From the IMG/VR virus record IMGVR_UViG_3300006929_000081, positions 1-28,184 of that record: a stretch of DNA of 28,184 nt. One strand, written 5' to 3'. This document shows positions 8,522 to 21,830 of this stretch, in pieces. The position numbers were made by a program, and so were the translations under genes. Every line of letters begins with the position of its first letter. Position 1 is the stretch's first letter. This stretch comes from a virus. The notes below the pieces were generated by a model, which saw only the letters and a program-made list of their open reading frames with translations, searched no databases and was not told the DNA's origin.

Positions 8522-9030
8522 TGGCAGTTGGATCTTCCGCTATCTGCGGAACTTTTAAGAGAGAGATACTCGCGGGTATCCATTTCTGGACAGCGCATAC
8601 GCGGACGGGGTCTAGCGCAATTTCAGCAGACACCTTCAAGATTGCGATGTTTACCAATAGTTCGTCTATTGACGCAGACACTACAGGATACACCACCAGC
8701 AATGAAGTCAGCGGCACAAATTACACGGCTGGCGGTAATTCTCTAGCAAGTGTAACGATAGGGCTTGCTGATAACAGTAGTTCTGTCCCTACGGCTTTTG
8801 TTGATTTTGCAGACACTACCTGGTCTAGTTCTACTATCAGTAGTGCGAGAGGTGCTTTAATTTACAACAGCACATTAAGCACTGCTGGCACAGGATCTAC
8901 AACAAATCACGCGGCTGACCCTGCGGTTGCGGTCATTAATTTTGGCGGGGACAAATCGTCAAGTGCGGGAGACTTTACCATTCAGTTTCCAGCAAATGAC
9001 GCTAACAATGCGATAATCAGGATTGCCTAA
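8521..9030 (+). CDS. beta-rich virion protein, unknown function
   Basis: A 169-residue Ser/Thr/Ala/Gly-rich protein beginning with FKREILAGIHFW, followed by TFKIAMFTNSSSIDADTTGY, and ending in FTIQFPANDANNAIIRIA. The pattern of short strands separated by polar loops is that of a tail or baseplate-like structural protein, and similar proteins recur in marine phages at this position. No enzyme motif is visible. It overlaps the genes on both sides by one base. Confidence 0.78.
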   Translation: MAVGSSAICGTFKREILAGIHFWTAHTRTGSSAISADTFKIAMFTNSSSIDADTTGYTTSNEVSGTNYTAGGNSLASVTIGLADNSSSVPTAFVDFADTTWSSSTISSARGALIYNSTLSTAGTGSTTNHAADPAVAVINFGGDKSSSAGDFTIQFPANDANNAIIRIA

Positions 9031-9491
9031 TGGCGTTAATTACTGGCTGGGATAGAAGCACTTGGAACGCCGGAGCGTGGAATAGTCCTATTCCCGTTGA
9101 GGTTACAGGTGTTTCTGCGGCTAGTGCAGTTGGTTCGGCTACGGTAAGTCTTCCAGTTAGTGTTTCTGTTACAGGTGTTTCTGCGGCAACCGGAATAGGA
9201 TCTGTTTCTATTCTTGTACCTGTTACAGTAACACCAAGCGGAGTTTCGGCGGCAAGCGGAATAGGATCACCTACTCTTGTAACGAACTCTACGCTGTCAG
9301 TTACAGGAGTTTCTTCGGCAAGTGCGGTTGGTTCTGTCCAAGCTAATTTTGCATTTACCGTTGAAGGAGTTTCTGCGGAGGGTCTCATTAACGTTCCAAA
9401 CGTGTGGACTGTTATAGACGACTCGCAAACTTCAAACTTCTCAGAGATAAGCACAACACAAACGCCGAATTGGACGGAAATAGCGGCATAG
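9030..9491 (+). CDS. GVSA-repeat virion protein
   Basis: A 153-residue protein with an N-terminal aromatic cap (GWDRSTWNAGAWNSP) followed by five units built on (V/S)TGVSAASAVGSVTV-like strands. The GVS triplet starts at residues 27, 49, 71, 93 and 113, a period of 22 residues with the last slightly shorter. The C-terminus is polar and aromatic (TQTPNWTEIAA). Such repeats suggest a beta-solenoid or stacked Ig-like rod. Position just before the fibre genes favours a tail fibre or tail surface protein. I recall similar repeat proteins in marine phages without known function. Confidence 0.78.
   Translation: MALITGWDRSTWNAGAWNSPIPVEVTGVSAASAVGSATVSLPVSVSVTGVSAATGIGSVSILVPVTVTPSGVSAASGIGSPTLVTNSTLSVTGVSSASAVGSVQANFAFTVEGVSAEGLINVPNVWTVIDDSQTSNFSEISTTQTPNWTEIAA
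9096..9389 (+). repeat. 22-residue (66-base) in-frame GVSA repeats
   Basis: Four full units and one partial unit with GVS codons at 9108, 9174, 9240, 9306 and 9366. Units match in protein (TGVSAASAVGS consensus) and partly in DNA (cggctagtgc / cggcaagcgg variants). Copy number could vary between relatives. Confidence 0.8.
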
Positions 9492-9501
9492 GAATAGTAT
9501 C

Positions 9502-10914
9502 ATGGCATCATCATACACGACTAGTTTTGGTATTGAAAAAATAGGTTCCGGAGAACAGTCTGGAGCGTGGGGAACGACTACAAACCACAATCTAGATATT
9601 CTAGACCGGGTAGCCTCATACAAAGCTGTTGCGATAACAACGAACGCAGACACGCACACTTTAACTGTGCGAGAGGCATCTCCTGGATCTGGGACAGAGA
9701 ATCTGCAAGATGGAATGTATCGTGTAATTAAATTTACAGGAGCATTGGATTCAAATTGCACAGTTACAGTGGCCCCTAACACGACTGCCGCTTTCTTTAT
9801 CATTATCAACGCAACTACCGATTCTGGCTCTAGTGGACCATACTCCGTAATTCTTACGCAAGGTTCTGGAGCGAATATAACTGTAGAAAATGGAAAATCT
9901 GCCGTTGTTTACATGGATGGTGCGGGTTCTGGCGCGGCGGTAATAGACGCTCTTTCCAACCTTCAGCTTGCTACGCTGACCGCGTCTGGAGATGTTACAT
10001 CCAGCGGCACGTTTAACGCTTTAGGTGATACTGCCGCAAGCGACAAGGCGGCAATGGGCTACACCTCCGCTGAAGGATTGATCCTTACGGGTCAGGGTTC
10101 AACTAATGATGTGACCATCAAGAATGACGCAGATGCAGACGTTATTACGATTGCCACCGGAGGAACTAATGTTGATATTGTAGGCGACGTAACAGCCGCC
10201 ACGGTACAGGCTGATGGTGATACTTCCGCTGGTGACAACGCTGCAATGGGGTACACGGCTGCGGAAGGTCTAATCCTTACAGGTCAGGGGTCAACTAATG
10301 ACGTTACCATTAAAAATGACGCGGACGCTGATGTAATCACGATTGCGACTGGGGCAACTAACGTCGATATTGTGGGTGATGTGACAGCCGCTACAGTAAA
10401 CGCTGACGGCGACACTTCCGCTGGTGATAACGCTGCGATGGGTTACACCGCTGCCGAAGGTTTGATTCTTACGGGTCAAGGCTCGACTAACGATGTCACA
10501 ATTAAGAACGATGCTGATGCGGATGTAATCACAATCGCAACTGGAGCAACTAATGTAGCGGTTGCTGGTCAGATTAATGGTGGCACAATCATTCTTGCAG
10601 AGACTGACACTGACACATCCAACACAGGCAGTGTAACGATTGACTTCTCCGCTCATCAGAATTTTGTGCTTACCCTTACGGGTAACGTGACTTTGGCTAA
10701 CCCCAGTACAGAATCAGTTGGTCAGGCAGGAGTGTTTGTGTTCATTCAAGATGGCACTGGATCACGAACTTTGAGTTTAGGCACGGATTATGAAACTGCG
10801 GGTGGGGCTGGAATTACTCTCAGCACCGCAGCTTCAGCCGTGGATGTCGTACCATATTTTGTGAAGGCTGCAAATTCAATTCAGCTAGGAGCTATACAGA
10901 AGGCATTTAGCTAA
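9502..10914 (+). CDS. tail fibre-like protein with three 64-residue repeats
   Basis: A 470-residue protein. Residues 1-150 begin SYTTSFGIEKIGSGEQSGAWGTTTNHNLDIL, split here by a conserved Gly/Trp motif GSGEQSGAWG common to marine phage fibre-like proteins, and continue as a beta domain. Residues 175-352 are three tandem 64-residue repeats centred on AAMGYT(S/A)AEGLILTGQGS and NDVTIKNDADADVITIATG. The C-terminal 360-470 is another beta domain (HQNFVLTLTGNVTLANP onward). The repeat region likely forms an elongated trimeric shaft. It is directly upstream of the large fibre gene. No catalytic site is recognised. Confidence 0.78.
   Translation: MASSYTTSFGIEKIGSGEQSGAWGTTTNHNLDILDRVASYKAVAITTNADTHTLTVREASPGSGTENLQDGMYRVIKFTGALDSNCTVTVAPNTTAAFFIIINATTDSGSSGPYSVILTQGSGANITVENGKSAVVYMDGAGSGAAVIDALSNLQLATLTASGDVTSSGTFNALGDTAASDKAAMGYTSAEGLILTGQGSTNDVTIKNDADADVITIATGGTNVDIVGDVTAATVQADGDTSAGDNAAMGYTAAEGLILTGQGSTNDVTIKNDADADVITIATGATNVDIVGDVTAATVNADGDTSAGDNAAMGYTAAEGLILTGQGSTNDVTIKNDADADVITIATGATNVAVAGQINGGTIILAETDTDTSNTGSVTIDFSAHQNFVLTLTGNVTLANPSTESVGQAGVFVFIQDGTGSRTLSLGTDYETAGGAGITLSTAASAVDVVPYFVKAANSIQLGAIQKAFS
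10024..10557 (+). repeat. three 192-base in-frame repeats in fibre gene
   Basis: Repeat units begin at codons for residues 175, 239 and 303, exactly 192 bases apart; the third is cut short at residue 352. In the 22-codon core (10090-10155, 10282-10347, 10474-10539) the three copies encode identical residues but differ at 12, 17 and 16 codons in pairwise comparison, all synonymous. Confidence 0.92.
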
Positions 10915-13334
10915 TGACGATGTTTGGATCACAGTGGTTCGCCGCACCTGATACGACTTATGAGATAAATCAGTCGATCAGGTTTGAATCGGGGGATAAT
11001 GCTCTTTTAAGTCGTAGCCCTTCGTCTTCCGGCTCTCTAACAACGTGGACGCTTTCTTGTTGGGTCAAGAGAGGTAGACCAAACGCTAATGAAAATGGCC
11101 AATGGTTTCCTATCTGGTCTGCATCGGATGGCTCTAGCACCTATGATGCTCCGCTATATATTGGGGACGCATCTGCTCCCGGTCCGTGGAATGTTAATAT
11201 TGCTGGTCAAACTTGGACAACTACACAAAAAGCCGCAGATGTTGCGGGGTGGTATCACACGGTCGTAGTTTGGGATAGCACAAACGGCACCGCTGGTGAT
11301 CGGATGCGACTCTACATTAACGGCAGTAGGGTTACTGATTTTTCAGCAACTGGCACAGCAACCAGCAGTATGGAAAGTAGATGGAATAGCAGCAGCTACT
11401 CATCTCACCGCATTGGATCACTCAACATTACGGGTGGGGCGGATAATAAATATCTGTTTGACGGATATCTGGCTGAAATGGTTTTCCTTGACGGAACCGC
11501 CTCCACCGATGCCAGCGACTTTGGTGAAACAAACAGCAGTACTGGTCAATGGATACCGAAAAATGTTAGTGGCCTGACGTTTGGAACTAATGGATTTTAC
11601 GTTACAGGTCAGGACAGTTCTGATTTAGGCGATGACGAATCTGGTAACGGAAATGACTGGTCTAGCAGTGGCTTGGCAGCAACGGATCAGGTTGACGACA
11701 GCCCGACTGATAATCACTGTGTTATCAATCCTCTTGATGCACAACTTCCAAGCAATGTAACTTTAGATGAAGGAAATTTAAAGTACTCCAACGCAAATTC
11801 TGGTAATGCTGCCGATGCAAGGGGAACTTTTGCTGTCAGCAGCGGTAAATGGTATTGGGAGGTAGAGGCTGACGCTCTCGGTCAGTCAGGAGTTAACCGT
11901 GAATTTATCGGCATCGTTGGAACAGAATGGCCAATCGGCAGTGGTTCGGGCGGAACTAGCTTTGGGTCTGATAGCACGGGTTACGCTTTTGCAACAACAG
12001 GTCAGAAGATCAATAACGACAGTGCTTCTAGCTACGGTTCGGCATTTACAGCGGGTCAGTATATAGGCGTTGCTCTCGATTTAGATAACGGTAAAATTTA
12101 CTGGAGTATAAATGGCACTTTTCAAGACTCTGGTGACCCTGCTGGCGGTTCGGGAGAAGCGTTTTCAAGCATCTCTGGAACCTTTGCCCCTGCTTTTGCT
12201 GTAGATTACGGAACTGGGACTTCAACGCTAATAGCTAATTTTGGTCAACACGATTTCCAAAATAGTCCTCCAACAGGATTTAGCGCATTAAGCACCGCCA
12301 ACCTAGCCGACCCACAAGTAGAAAATCCCAGCAAGTATTTTCATACCCAGCTTTACACGGGTAATGGTAGCTCCGGCCACTCGATTACCAATAATGCCCA
12401 AGCGGGAGATTTTCAGCCTGATTGGTTAATAATCGCTCCCCGTTCCAATGGCGACCATCATCAAGTTTTTGATGCCGTAAGAGGCACCACAAGCCGCATT
12501 CAAACAAACCAAGCAAACGCAGCAACAGTGGACGGTACTGCACTTATCACGTTTGAAACCGATGGATTTGACATTGACACCACGGATGTGAACTACAACG
12601 GATCAAGCAGAACCTATGCTGCTTGGCAATGGAAAGCTAACGGTAGCGGCAGCAGCAACTCTGATGGTTCTATAACGTCAACAGTTAGTGCTGACACAAC
12701 CGCTGGTTTCAGCATTGTGCAATATGAGGGAACAAAATCAAACGCCACTATAGGACATGGTTTAGGAGTGGCTCCGAAATGGATTATCATAAAAGATTTT
12801 GATAATACTGAAAGTTGGGTTGTAGGGCTGGACGTTTTAGGCTTTACAAAAAATCTTTTTCTTAATCTTAACAATGCAGTGGCAACCAGCTCAACAATTT
12901 GGAATGATACTGCACCAACTTCGTCTGTGTTTAGTATAGGCACAAGTGATGGTGTTAATAAAACAGCCACGCACATTTCCTACTGTTTTGCAGAAGTCGA
13001 GGGCTTTAGTAAATTTGGAACATACGAGGGCAATTCGAGTGCGGACGGAACATTTATTGCCACAGGATTTCGTCCCGCGTGGATTACACTAAAAACTGTG
13101 GACTCAGCAAACGATTGGGTCATCTACGACAGCAAGCGTGATCCGATTAACATCGCTGATACTGTACTGCGAATGGACAGCACCAACTCTGAGTATTCTG
13201 GCAGTGGTCGAGAAATAGACATACTCAGTAATGGTTTCAAAATGAGAACGTCAAACGGAACGATTAACGCAAGTGCTACGTTTGCATATATGGCGTTTGC
13301 TGAGTTTCCCTTAAAATACGCGAATGCGAGGTAA
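10914..13334 (+). CDS. large tail fibre / receptor-binding protein with LamG- and SPRY-like domains
   Basis: An 806-residue protein. Residues about 20-215 look like a concanavalin/LamG fold (FESGDNALLSRS, WTLSCWVKRG, MRLYINGSRV, DGYLAEMVFLDG). Residues about 287-447 resemble a SPRY domain (SGKWYWEVEAD, GQYIGVALDLDNGKIYWSING). From 475 onward three related modules carry QPDWLIIAP (501), APKWIIIKD (620) and RPAWITLKT (720), each followed by a second strand pair; I recall this as a DUF7483-like fibre module. LamG and SPRY folds often bind sugars or proteins, so host-surface binding is a reasonable inference. The gene starts on the stop of the repeat fibre and is followed by a putative fibre assembly gene. 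Confidence 0.8.
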   Translation: MTMFGSQWFAAPDTTYEINQSIRFESGDNALLSRSPSSSGSLTTWTLSCWVKRGRPNANENGQWFPIWSASDGSSTYDAPLYIGDASAPGPWNVNIAGQTWTTTQKAADVAGWYHTVVVWDSTNGTAGDRMRLYINGSRVTDFSATGTATSSMESRWNSSSYSSHRIGSLNITGGADNKYLFDGYLAEMVFLDGTASTDASDFGETNSSTGQWIPKNVSGLTFGTNGFYVTGQDSSDLGDDESGNGNDWSSSGLAATDQVDDSPTDNHCVINPLDAQLPSNVTLDEGNLKYSNANSGNAADARGTFAVSSGKWYWEVEADALGQSGVNREFIGIVGTEWPIGSGSGGTSFGSDSTGYAFATTGQKINNDSASSYGSAFTAGQYIGVALDLDNGKIYWSINGTFQDSGDPAGGSGEAFSSISGTFAPAFAVDYGTGTSTLIANFGQHDFQNSPPTGFSALSTANLADPQVENPSKYFHTQLYTGNGSSGHSITNNAQAGDFQPDWLIIAPRSNGDHHQVFDAVRGTTSRIQTNQANAATVDGTALITFETDGFDIDTTDVNYNGSSRTYAAWQWKANGSGSSNSDGSITSTVSADTTAGFSIVQYEGTKSNATIGHGLGVAPKWIIIKDFDNTESWVVGLDVLGFTKNLFLNLNNAVATSSTIWNDTAPTSSVFSIGTSDGVNKTATHISYCFAEVEGFSKFGTYEGNSSADGTFIATGFRPAWITLKTVDSANDWVIYDSKRDPINIADTVLRMDSTNSEYSGSGREIDILSNGFKMRTSNGTINASATFAYMAFAEFPLKYANAR
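12336..13313 (+). repeat. three diverged modules of about 100-120 residues in fibre C-terminus
   Basis: Modules begin near residues 475, 598 and 699 with YTGNGSSGH, YEGTKSNATIGHG and YEGNSSADGTFIATG. Each continues with (Q/A/R)P.W(L/I)I and a later (G/S).F.I/M strand. They are recognisable only as protein and look like old duplications. Confidence 0.6.
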
Positions 13335-18244: not shown

Positions 18245-19272
18245 TGGCCACTGTAACAGAACAGATTGTACGCCAAGCCCCCTTTCTTGAGGACTTCCAA
18301 AGAAAGATTCTGGAAGCTTCGTTTGCGCGAGGCGAAACTCCTGTTGATATTCCAGACATAGGCGTTGCGGGTCTTGATCCACTTACGCAGCAGGCCATTG
18401 CTACTGGACAGGGCATAGGGCAGTTTCAGCCTTTTTTAACAACAGGTGCGGACACAATAGGACAGGGTCTGGCTACTCTTCAGCAACAGGCGGCTGGTGT
18501 CCCAGGGTTATTTGAACAAGCACAGCAGCAGGCGGCTGGGACTACGGGTGCTTTTGACCCGACTACATCTGCTGCGTTTATGGATCCGTTCCAACAGGCT
18601 GTTACACGGGATGCTCTTGCCGAAATGCAACGGCAGGCAGACATCCAGACGAATCAGCTTTCGGCACAGGCCGTTGGTGCGGGTGCTTTTGGTGGTAGTA
18701 GACAGGGCATAGCACAAGCAGAACTGGGCAGAAATCTGGCCGACATTCAGAGCCGTCGCATCTTTGAAGATGCAAGCCGTAACTTTAACCAAGCCCAGAA
18801 TGCCGCACAAACAGCTTTTGAAAACCAGCAACGCCGTCAGCAAGGTGTCGCACAGCTTCTAGGTGGACTAGCATCCTCACAGTCACAGGAGGCGGTTCGT
18901 CTTGGTGGGGGTATCGCGGGTCTTGGATCACAGCAGGCTAACATAGCTGGTGTAGGACAAAACCTTTTGGGTCAGCAGGCGCAGCTACAGTCTCAGCTTG
19001 GCTCTCTTGCACAGACGCAGTCGCAAAGAGAACTAGACGCTGCCAGACAGTCTCAGTTGCAACAGTCCTTTGAACCCTTCCAGCGTATTAGCTTCATGAG
19101 TGATATCTTTAAACCTCAGATTGGTTCCGCTGGCTCCACGTTAGGTTTGAACGTGGCTCCCGCACCAAGTCCATTGTCACAGGCTATTGGTCTTGGAATA
19201 GGGGCTTTTGGAATTAACCAGAAGTTAGGTAACCCTTTGGGTAATCTCTTTGGCAGTGCTACGGGGACTTGA
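18244..19272 (+). CDS. glutamine-rich internal virion protein candidate
   Basis: A 342-residue Gln/Ala/Gly-rich protein, mostly predicted helical. Recognisable parts are GLDPLTQQAIATGQGIGQF, AAFMDPFQQAVTRDALAEMQ, the conserved AVGAGAFGGSRQGIAQAELG, and a C-terminal LGIGAFGINQKLGNPLG. This protein type is widespread in marine short-tailed phages next to the large internal proteins. Its composition resembles ejection proteins, which partly unfold to pass the tail. It overlaps both neighbouring genes by one base or a few bases. No enzymatic motif is visible. Confidence 0.75.
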   Translation: MATVTEQIVRQAPFLEDFQRKILEASFARGETPVDIPDIGVAGLDPLTQQAIATGQGIGQFQPFLTTGADTIGQGLATLQQQAAGVPGLFEQAQQQAAGTTGAFDPTTSAAFMDPFQQAVTRDALAEMQRQADIQTNQLSAQAVGAGAFGGSRQGIAQAELGRNLADIQSRRIFEDASRNFNQAQNAAQTAFENQQRRQQGVAQLLGGLASSQSQEAVRLGGGIAGLGSQQANIAGVGQNLLGQQAQLQSQLGSLAQTQSQRELDAARQSQLQQSFEPFQRISFMSDIFKPQIGSAGSTLGLNVAPAPSPLSQAIGLGIGAFGINQKLGNPLGNLFGSATGT

Positions 19273-21830
19273 TGATGAATAGACGCTCTCCAGTTCGATC
19301 CGTCCTAGCACAACGCAAAATGTTTGCGAATGGTGGAATGCTTCCCATAAGCACTCCCATGCAAAACACCATGGATCAAGGTCAGAATAAAGCGTCTGGA
19401 ATACTGGCATCCTCGACTCCACTGATTGAGGCGGTGTCGCAAGAGATTCTTGCACCCATGACGGGTGGTGCAATGCCCGTGGCTGGGTTTCATGAAGGGG
19501 GTTACGCCCATCGACATCCGCATGGTCTAACCATTTTTGGTGAACCTCCTAAATTACAAGAGGGAGATGCGGAAGGCAAAAGAATATACGACGCTGCTTA
19601 TAAAAGTGAAACTCCCATAGGATTGCAAACAAGTGGTCCTTTTGCAGAAGTAGAGTATAAGCCAACTGTAGGAGAACGTGCGGAAATTGGTCTGGGCTCT
19701 CCTCCAGAAGATCTACAAAAACGTGCGAATATGACTGCTGCGGAGCGTTTAGAGTCTATCTTCCCTTATGAGGCAGAACTTACAGGCGGATTTTTTGGCC
19801 CCCAAAAAGCTAGGGAAGCAGGTCCTGGCATAGGAGTAGATTCAACTTCTTTAGCTGAACAAGCTATAGAGGCTCCTCTTGCGTTTATTGATGAAACAGC
19901 AAGAAATTTAAGTCAGGCTAATTTTGCGGCAGGAAAGTTCTTAATGAACTTAGGAGAAACTATATTTAAAAGGGGCGACCAAAGTTTTGGAACAAAATAC
20001 GATCAGATATCTACCCTAGGTAACTTAATACGCAGACAACCTACCATTGAAGGTACGGATCCTTCAGAAGTTACGGATACTATTAATAGATTGGCAGATG
20101 CGTATTTAGGGGAAAATCCTGATGCTAGTGGTGCTGATTTAGCTAAAGCTGTATCAGAGGGAGTTTATAATCAGTATGAAGCCGGATATGCATTGGCAGC
20201 GGCTGATGCTGATTTAGTTATCAACGAAGAGGCTCGAGACAAAGCTATTCAAGATGCGGAAGAGGCAAAGCAACAAGAAGAAGCTTTAGCCACTGACGAT
20301 TCTGTTTCTGGAACGGAGGTTCCCGACCCTGCTCCGGAGCGTCCAGATCAAGACAGTCAAACTGTGCTAGATGGTGTTATAACAGGTTCAAAGGCTGTTC
20401 AAGACATTCAATCTGGCGTTGAAAAAGAAACTGCTCTTGCAGCAGAAGATGCTCTTGGTGCTGATTTAGCTAATTTAACTATTCCTGAAGCCGCAGACAA
20501 AGACGAAAAAACTACGGAAGAACTATTAGAGATGTATAAAACAGAGTTTTTAAACTCTGTCGGAGAATACGAAGGTAAAACAGAAGGCGAAATAGCTAAC
20601 GATTGGATTAAAATGGGCATGGCGATAGCTGCCGGTCAAAGCCAGTATGCTATTTCAAATATTGCTAATGGTGTTCTTAAAACAATTGATGCTTTTGGGG
20701 ATGATCCCAGAAGCAAAAGAGCTTACAACAACAAAGTTAAACTGGCTGCTGCTAAATATTCTCTGGAGTCTTTGGCTAAGTATAGGTCTAATTTAGAACA
20801 AACGTCTAGGGATGATAGGGCTTTATTTAACACGAGATTTAGAGTGCAGCCTGGTGAAAGCTTTGAATACAACGGAAGAACTTATAATGCTGGCGACACT
20901 GTAATTGCTCAAGTAGGAGACATTCGCAGCGGTGTTTTCCCGCTGAACAAAGTTAACTCCGAAGCTTTTGATATCAAACTTCTTGAAGATCAAGTTCGCG
21001 ACCTTAAAAAAACACTAAAGTCCAATCTATCAGCCCTAGGAGATAGAACGGAAAAAGGTTCTTCTATAGATAGTGCTGTGGAAGCCTATGGAAATCAGGT
21101 CGCGCAGGTCAGAGCAAATATAGGTATTCAGCATTTATTAAAAGAAGCCATGACCATGACGGGCGCTGTTACTGGTGGCGCTAACGCGCTGTTAGCTTTT
21201 GGTCAAAAAGTAGAAAACTTTTTAGGTATAAAATTAGGAGAGTTCTCTGCGGAAGAACCCGAAAAATACCGATTTTTGGTTAACCAAGCTATTCAGAAAA
21301 ATATTACGGCTTTGTTAAACGAGGGTAACCGAACTATTTCTGATGCAGACCGCGCCAGAGCGGAAACAATTGGTGGTCTTTACGCAGACTATGTATTGGC
21401 TCCTTCTACGATGAACAGAGATATACTAGAAAATACTCTCATAGAGTTCAGTAATTCTATAAAAAGAAACACTCAAGAAACGCTGGCTGATATGCAGGCT
21501 AGAGAAAATACATGGGCGGGGACTTTAACTAAGGGCGGCAGAGATGCTCAACAAATTATGGAACAGAGAAGGGGAACATTGGCCCTTGAAACATTGGATC
21601 CTTCTTCTGGTAAAAGAGTTCCCAGCAAAATTAAATGGACAGATATTTTAGACGTTAAGGGAGAAGGCAAAGATAGAACCATTACTTACAAATCGGATTG
21701 GTTTAAAAGACCGGAGCTTAAAACTGTAGAAGATTCTGCATTACCAGAAAATTATACCAAAGCTAAAACTCCCGAACAACGACTTGCAGAAATACTAGAA
21801 GAAAACCGTAAAAAGGAAGGGAAAGAATAA
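19272..21830 (+). CDS. large internal virion protein with ISDADR motif
   Basis: An 852-residue protein from the ATG at 19272, which overlaps the previous TGA; another ATG follows immediately. The N-terminus (RRSPVRSVLAQRKMFANGGM) is basic with an ANGGM motif, and HEGGYAHRHPHG follows. Residues about 310-420 are acidic and low-complexity. A conserved-looking block NDWIKMGMAIAAGQSQYAIS lies near 440. Residues 682-696 read LNEGNRTISDADRAR, matching the small protein at 500-898. The C-terminal part contains WTDILDVKGEGKDRTITYK. No transmembrane segment is evident. Position among ejection-type genes suggests an internal or injected protein. Confidence 0.72.
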   Translation: MMNRRSPVRSVLAQRKMFANGGMLPISTPMQNTMDQGQNKASGILASSTPLIEAVSQEILAPMTGGAMPVAGFHEGGYAHRHPHGLTIFGEPPKLQEGDAEGKRIYDAAYKSETPIGLQTSGPFAEVEYKPTVGERAEIGLGSPPEDLQKRANMTAAERLESIFPYEAELTGGFFGPQKAREAGPGIGVDSTSLAEQAIEAPLAFIDETARNLSQANFAAGKFLMNLGETIFKRGDQSFGTKYDQISTLGNLIRRQPTIEGTDPSEVTDTINRLADAYLGENPDASGADLAKAVSEGVYNQYEAGYALAAADADLVINEEARDKAIQDAEEAKQQEEALATDDSVSGTEVPDPAPERPDQDSQTVLDGVITGSKAVQDIQSGVEKETALAAEDALGADLANLTIPEAADKDEKTTEELLEMYKTEFLNSVGEYEGKTEGEIANDWIKMGMAIAAGQSQYAISNIANGVLKTIDAFGDDPRSKRAYNNKVKLAAAKYSLESLAKYRSNLEQTSRDDRALFNTRFRVQPGESFEYNGRTYNAGDTVIAQVGDIRSGVFPLNKVNSEAFDIKLLEDQVRDLKKTLKSNLSALGDRTEKGSSIDSAVEAYGNQVAQVRANIGIQHLLKEAMTMTGAVTGGANALLAFGQKVENFLGIKLGEFSAEEPEKYRFLVNQAIQKNITALLNEGNRTISDADRARAETIGGLYADYVLAPSTMNRDILENTLIEFSNSIKRNTQETLADMQARENTWAGTLTKGGRDAQQIMEQRRGTLALETLDPSSGKRVPSKIKWTDILDVKGEGKDRTITYKSDWFKRPELKTVEDSALPENYTKAKTPEQRLAEILEENRKKEGKE
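21315..21359 (+). repeat. remote copy of the ISDADR coding repeat
   Basis: Encodes LNEGNRTISDADRAR. Against 554-598 the 39 bases from AAC to GCC differ at three positions only, all synonymous, and include a 23-base identical run (557-579 versus 21318-21340). Confidence 0.92.

Follow-up and report, generated by a model that had tools for sequence, protein, structure and literature searches.

A 28,184-nucleotide stretch of DNA of a marine virus from IMG/VR (the window) carries a tail-fibre-like gene encoding 470 residues, in which three consecutive repeats of 64 residues separate an N-terminal from a C-terminal domain (Table 1). The three in-frame 192-nt units together span positions 10009-10584, and the same period was also found by a repeat finder (10005-10580) and by Tandem Repeats Finder (10024-10553). 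Each unit contains one copy of the core GQGSTNDVTIKNDADADVIT, starting at 10090, 10282, and 10474. The initial annotation described three 64-residue repeats, 192 bases apart, with an identical 22-residue core, which proved exact, and the block identical across all three units in fact extends over 31 residues (AEGLILTGQGSTNDVTIKNDADADVITIATG). Our recount over the 22 codons from G also reproduced its figures of 12, 17, and 16 differing codons for r1-r2, r1-r3, and r2-r3, all of them synonymous; over the 31-codon core, 18, 21, and 21 codons differ in the same order. The units share 56 of 64 residues and are 70–77% identical in DNA, a resemblance that indicates homology beyond chance.

Table 1. 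Features of the fibre-like gene and its repeats (nucleotide positions in the window, residues in the 470-aa product).
Feature	Position	Strand	Remarks
Fibre-like gene, 470 aa	9502..10914	+	ORF call; N-terminus phrog_31104, C-terminus with fibre homology
N-terminal domain	residues 1-165		phrog_31104 membership
Three 64-aa repeats	residues 170-361		
C-terminal domain	residues 362-470		fibre protein homology
Repeat unit 1 (r1)	10009..10200	+	64 codons
Repeat unit 2 (r2)	10201..10392	+	64 codons
Repeat unit 3 (r3)	10393..10584	+	64 codons; terminal type, ends AVAGQINGG unlike units 1-2
31-aa identical core, copy 1	10069..10161	+	
31-aa identical core, copy 2	10261..10353	+	
31-aa identical core, copy 3	10453..10545	+	
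Putative recombination junction, window vs L131	10530..10599	+	in or just after the unit 3 core

The family phrog_31104, to which the N-terminal domain belongs, has no function assigned in PHROG. The C-terminal 95 residues share 75% identity with the Roseobacter phage CRP-811 "fiber protein", a deposited annotation through which the product can be regarded as a putative phage tail fibre, and the C-terminal domain is also similar to cyanophage fibres. The gene belongs to the structural module and follows the major capsid gene at a distance of 4.7 kb. AlphaFold2 modelling with 37 sequences predicted four strands per unit (repeat pLDDT ~60, pTM 0.33) and a C-terminal domain with a pLDDT of 80–90, and the best Foldseek matches were phage fibre or spike proteins with low TM-scores. 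The repeats likely constitute the fibre shaft, as judged mainly from the context, the model being of low confidence; from the gene position, the C-terminal domain, and this low-confidence model, we infer a trimeric β-structured shaft. The 64-residue repeat was absent from all GenBank phage records searched, and tblastn with the repeat alone against GenBank phages returned chance-level matches only. The fibre has no Pfam match, a literature search for the motif NDVTIKND found no paper, and the only sequence matches in the PDB, to PCNA (E 0.01–0.03), were discarded as spurious. The repeat family is common in marine viral contigs, one scan alone matching over 580 stretches.

The major capsid protein shares 66–73% identity with its counterparts in HTVC023P-type pelagiphages and phage DSL-LC04, and DNA polymerase A is 46–47% identical to those of HTVC023P, HTVC027P, DSL-LC04, and 023Pt_psg01. 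Capsid, polymerase A, and gene order, compared without a whole-genome tree, place the window in the HTVC023P-type group, whose members share a GroES-like gene upstream of the capsid gene; their structural regions contained no detectable copy of the repeat in the stretches read. Among the marine phage fibres compared (CRP-811, CRP-901/902, and those of cyanophages SS120-1, PSS2, and S-CBP2), CRP-811 has the homologous C-terminal domain, and CRP-902/901 have a homologous N-terminal domain (32–35% identity), with the CRP-902 fibre gene similarly placed after the head genes.

The repeats had been described as heavily recoded, and a comparison of their codon divergence with the expectation from the codon use of the genome had been proposed. 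We calculated the expected differences under free synonymous choice for the same residues, taking codon frequencies from the genes of the window itself. The observed numbers of differing codons (29, 31, and 31 for the three pairs) are equal to or below the expected ones (35.1, 30.6, and 34.6); the divergence of the units is synonymous saturation or just short of it and not an excess of recoding. With NG86, the whole units show a pS of 0.67–0.78 and a dN of 0.08–0.15, the core a dN of 0 at a pS of 0.80–0.93, and the linker a dN/dS of ~0.17–0.20 between copies. The dN/dS is far below 1 between copies (~0.03–0.05 for the unit) and between orthologous repeats of relatives (0–0.055). The unchanged core at saturated synonymous sites, these ratios, and the orthology of the repeats by position described below give good support to the proposal that the unit has long been under purifying selection. 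Four-fold sites of the neighbouring genes (7578, 8521, 9030, the N- and C-terminal domains of the fibre, the DUF7483 gene, 13340, and 13865) are mostly 0.2–0.6 identical between relatives, with protein identities from ~0.35 to 0.98, and the repeats are equally saturated. Because all genes of the locus are near synonymous saturation, the synonymous turnover of the fibre repeats does not stand out.

We gathered relatives from at least 80 IMG/VR loci with the gene and at least 80 found by a two-repeat scan, the contigs partly overlapping; all repeat-bearing relatives are metagenome contigs or assemblies, in which chimeras and collapsed repeats are possible. Among 77 non-redundant ORFs, a few of them cut by contig ends, the copy number was one in 4 ORFs, two in 22, three in 38, four in 7, five in 4, six in 1, and seven in 1, at odds with the suggestion of a conserved fibre length. 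L068 and L079 were dropped as candidate copy-number changes because their contigs end inside the array. In a tree built with 61 repeats of 19 near genes, position labels require 13 changes, compared with 31.7 when shuffled, and gene labels require 52. Of the three position clades, that of r2 (11 rows) is starred and those of r1 and r3 are not; the bootstrap is not fully settled, with many deep forks open. The units of the window are closest to the same-position units of relatives. This grouping by position across relatives dates the duplications to before the divergence of the near clade, in which the tree shows r1, r2, and r3 as separate orthologous lines.

The arrays have continued to recombine despite the divergence of their units. 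L056 has two units, and its near-identical kin carry three. Its N-terminal part is 99.2% identical to that of L004, which has three units, and its unit 1 is 99% identical to unit 1 of L004. The first 87 nt of its unit 2 are identical to unit 2 of L003 and L009, and the remainder is of the unit 3 type, in register. L056 has thus lost one unit or acquired the shorter array by exchange with another phage. The exchanged repeats are only ~70% alike, and at the junction only 2 nt match the known parents exactly, the true parent of the right half lying outside the set (nearest 97%). With that proviso, we rejected the idea that copy number can change only through long stretches of exact homology. Lambda Red joins sequences that are 22% diverged (PMC2327257). 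The gene of the window is also a mosaic relative to that of L131, which has the same length and three units: the DNA identity is 95.6% over residues 1-130, 77.8% over 170-340, and 96.8% over 341-456, and it changes at the junction from 71% (residues 298-340) to 97% (residues 341-456). A screen of all units detected four chimeric ones (L056, L113, L137, and L151). As far as the contigs can be trusted, the crossover step is documented by L056 and by the window with L131, with similar chimeras in L113, L137, and L151.

All cores are identical in only one of the 51 genes with at least three units, namely that of the window. The three-way identity is rare because most relatives carry VIEIPTG or a similar sequence at the end of the terminal core. 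The VITIATG of unit 3 in the window lies within sequence that matches the terminal unit of L131 at 97% identity, and this match, set against the VIEIPTG of most relatives, points to a lineage-specific origin of the core identity.

The best explanation, to which we assign a probability of roughly 0.86, combines old duplication, purifying selection, saturated synonymous sites, and an array that is not frozen. The likely shaft is built from an old, internally duplicated 64-residue unit, predicted to be rich in β-strands, whose protein sequence purifying selection keeps nearly unchanged in each copy. Synonymous sites have meanwhile drifted to saturation, as they demonstrably have in every gene of the phage group, and the near-clade duplications predate the divergence of the phages, in line with the tree. 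In-register crossovers of diverged repeats, within or between phages, alter the copy number and shuffle segments of the shaft. The three-way core identity in the window may then combine lineage-specific shuffling with selection for the family-wide consensus, which is partly documented and partly conjectural.

A lack of young duplicates counts against this explanation, as do the low confidence of the structure model and the origin of all repeat-bearing relatives in metagenome contigs or assemblies. None of the 244 within-gene repeat pairs from 73 genes exceeds 84% DNA identity although copy number is variable; young duplicates are thus absent from the sample, whereas simple birth-and-death would predict some. 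Young near-identical arrays might arise and be quickly deleted, or units might come only from other phage lineages, so that the survivors would be a filtered, diverged set. The gap above 84%, at copy numbers from one to seven, speaks for such filtering, as do the chimeric units, which point to imports and in-register exchanges. However, short-read assemblies collapse near-identical tandem repeats and would themselves collapse or break 192-nt ones (PMC6868369), and the 84% ceiling may be an assembly bias of the data; the longest identical run retained between repeats, 80 nt, is shorter than usual k-mer sizes. Pairs of 85–97% identity, which should assemble, are also missing, but this range would be passed quickly at the present substitution rate. 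Contig ends inspected by eye gave no clear excess of breaks at repeats, truncated genes being under-sampled. A gene neighbouring the fibre gene in L008 contains near-identical 60-nt repeats (2.2 copies, 100%), which indicates that short near-identical repeats do assemble, and a tandem repeat of 126 nt (94% matches) that lies upstream of the L062 fibre gene, at 2614-2841, shows that fairly young repeats of such size can survive assembly. Filtering as a whole seems to us unlikely, without being negligible. We likewise hold only tentatively, and with more doubt than belief, that new units come chiefly from in-register homeologous recombination with other lineages, rather than from local tandem duplication, or that near-identical arrays are purged at once; if so, shafts would always consist of mutually diverged units, and the repeat would act as a shuffling cassette for the length and composition of the fibre.

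The initial annotation had further raised the possibility that the codons of neighbouring repeats are selected to differ, blocking slippage or homologous recombination from altering the fibre length. The low DNA identity of units with identical cores and the lack of any within-gene pair above 84% would suit this idea, and engineered codon diversification does suppress recombination between repeats (PMC12365220). We compared repeats within and across genes in a paired test, restricted to codons encoding the same residue in all four repeats; for old repeats, the difference between r1 and r2 is expected to be as large within a gene as between genes. Codon identity was higher within genes than across for r1-r2 (0.42 vs. 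0.35), r2-r3 (0.41 vs. 0.36), and r1-r3 (0.37 vs. 0.34), with codon use accounting for ~0.015 of the difference; in the near clade alone, the within-gene excess was weaker and was absent for r1-r3. Exact runs of at least 30 nt are over tenfold more common within genes, being shared by 5.1% of within-gene pairs against 0.4% of pairs across genes. The signal is slight homogenisation, the opposite of avoidance. Codon divergence that does not surpass the neutral expectation, the length of shared runs, and the variable copy number all argue against diversifying selection on codons, and diverged repeats undergo in-register crossovers anyway. The expectation test together with the paired test led us to reject selection for codon difference, which we consider highly improbable. 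That unduplicated units converged on one protein sequence would fit synonymous sites with almost no trace of common ancestry, but is hardly conceivable given the spacing of exactly 64 codons, the 56 identical residues, an excess of short DNA runs in common throughout the family, synonymous sites that in the family remain more alike than saturation would leave them, and the crossovers between units in relatives.

Old duplication under purifying selection makes the pattern an ordinary one, a fresh example of a known phenomenon. In polyubiquitin, protein-identical repeats carry many synonymous differences, and concerted versus birth-and-death evolution has been debated (PMC10457151). The fibre repeats resemble polyubiquitin in their head-to-tail arrangement, constant protein, diverging synonymous sites, variable copy number, and occasional unequal crossing-over. 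In contrast to polyubiquitin, the near-clade fibre repeats group by position and not by genome, indicating little concerted evolution, in agreement with the small within-gene excess of similarity; the fibre units belong to a single protein that, so far as is known, is not cleaved into units, and their linker part varies between copies. Protein repeats generally show strong vertical conservation (Persi, Wolf and Koonin 2016, PMC5120217), and the fibre repeats share with those repeats the strong conservation of orthologous copies, a low dN/dS, and birth-and-death by duplication and loss. Unlike in the typical accelerated "horizontal" evolution reported there, the fibre core diverges no faster between copies than between orthologues, whereas the linker does diverge faster between copies. 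Repeats with the same protein and different DNA are thus an expected outcome of old duplication and purifying selection in fast-turning phage genomes, and ~30% DNA divergence is insufficient to prevent in-register exchange between repeats of a fibre gene. The analysis also documents an uncurated repeat family.

Other repeats lie near the fibre gene and elsewhere in the window. The gene directly upstream (9030-9491) has its own repeats of 20–22 residues (VTGVSAASAVGSVT...) and is among the least conserved of the neighbourhood, with protein identities of 0.4–0.8 between relatives. Immediately upstream of the fibre gene in L030 is an array of ~40 copies of a 66-nt repeat (16-2728). The gene after the fibre (10914-13334) encodes Laminin_G_3, SPRY, and DUF7483 domains, and its product is only 35–53% identical to its counterparts in relatives where one was found; it is likely a receptor-binding or adhesin-like structural gene under fast exchange. 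A small ORF at 500-898 contains repeated motifs of the TISDADR kind, and the motif NEGNRTISDADRAR recurs in the 853-aa ORF at 19269-21830.
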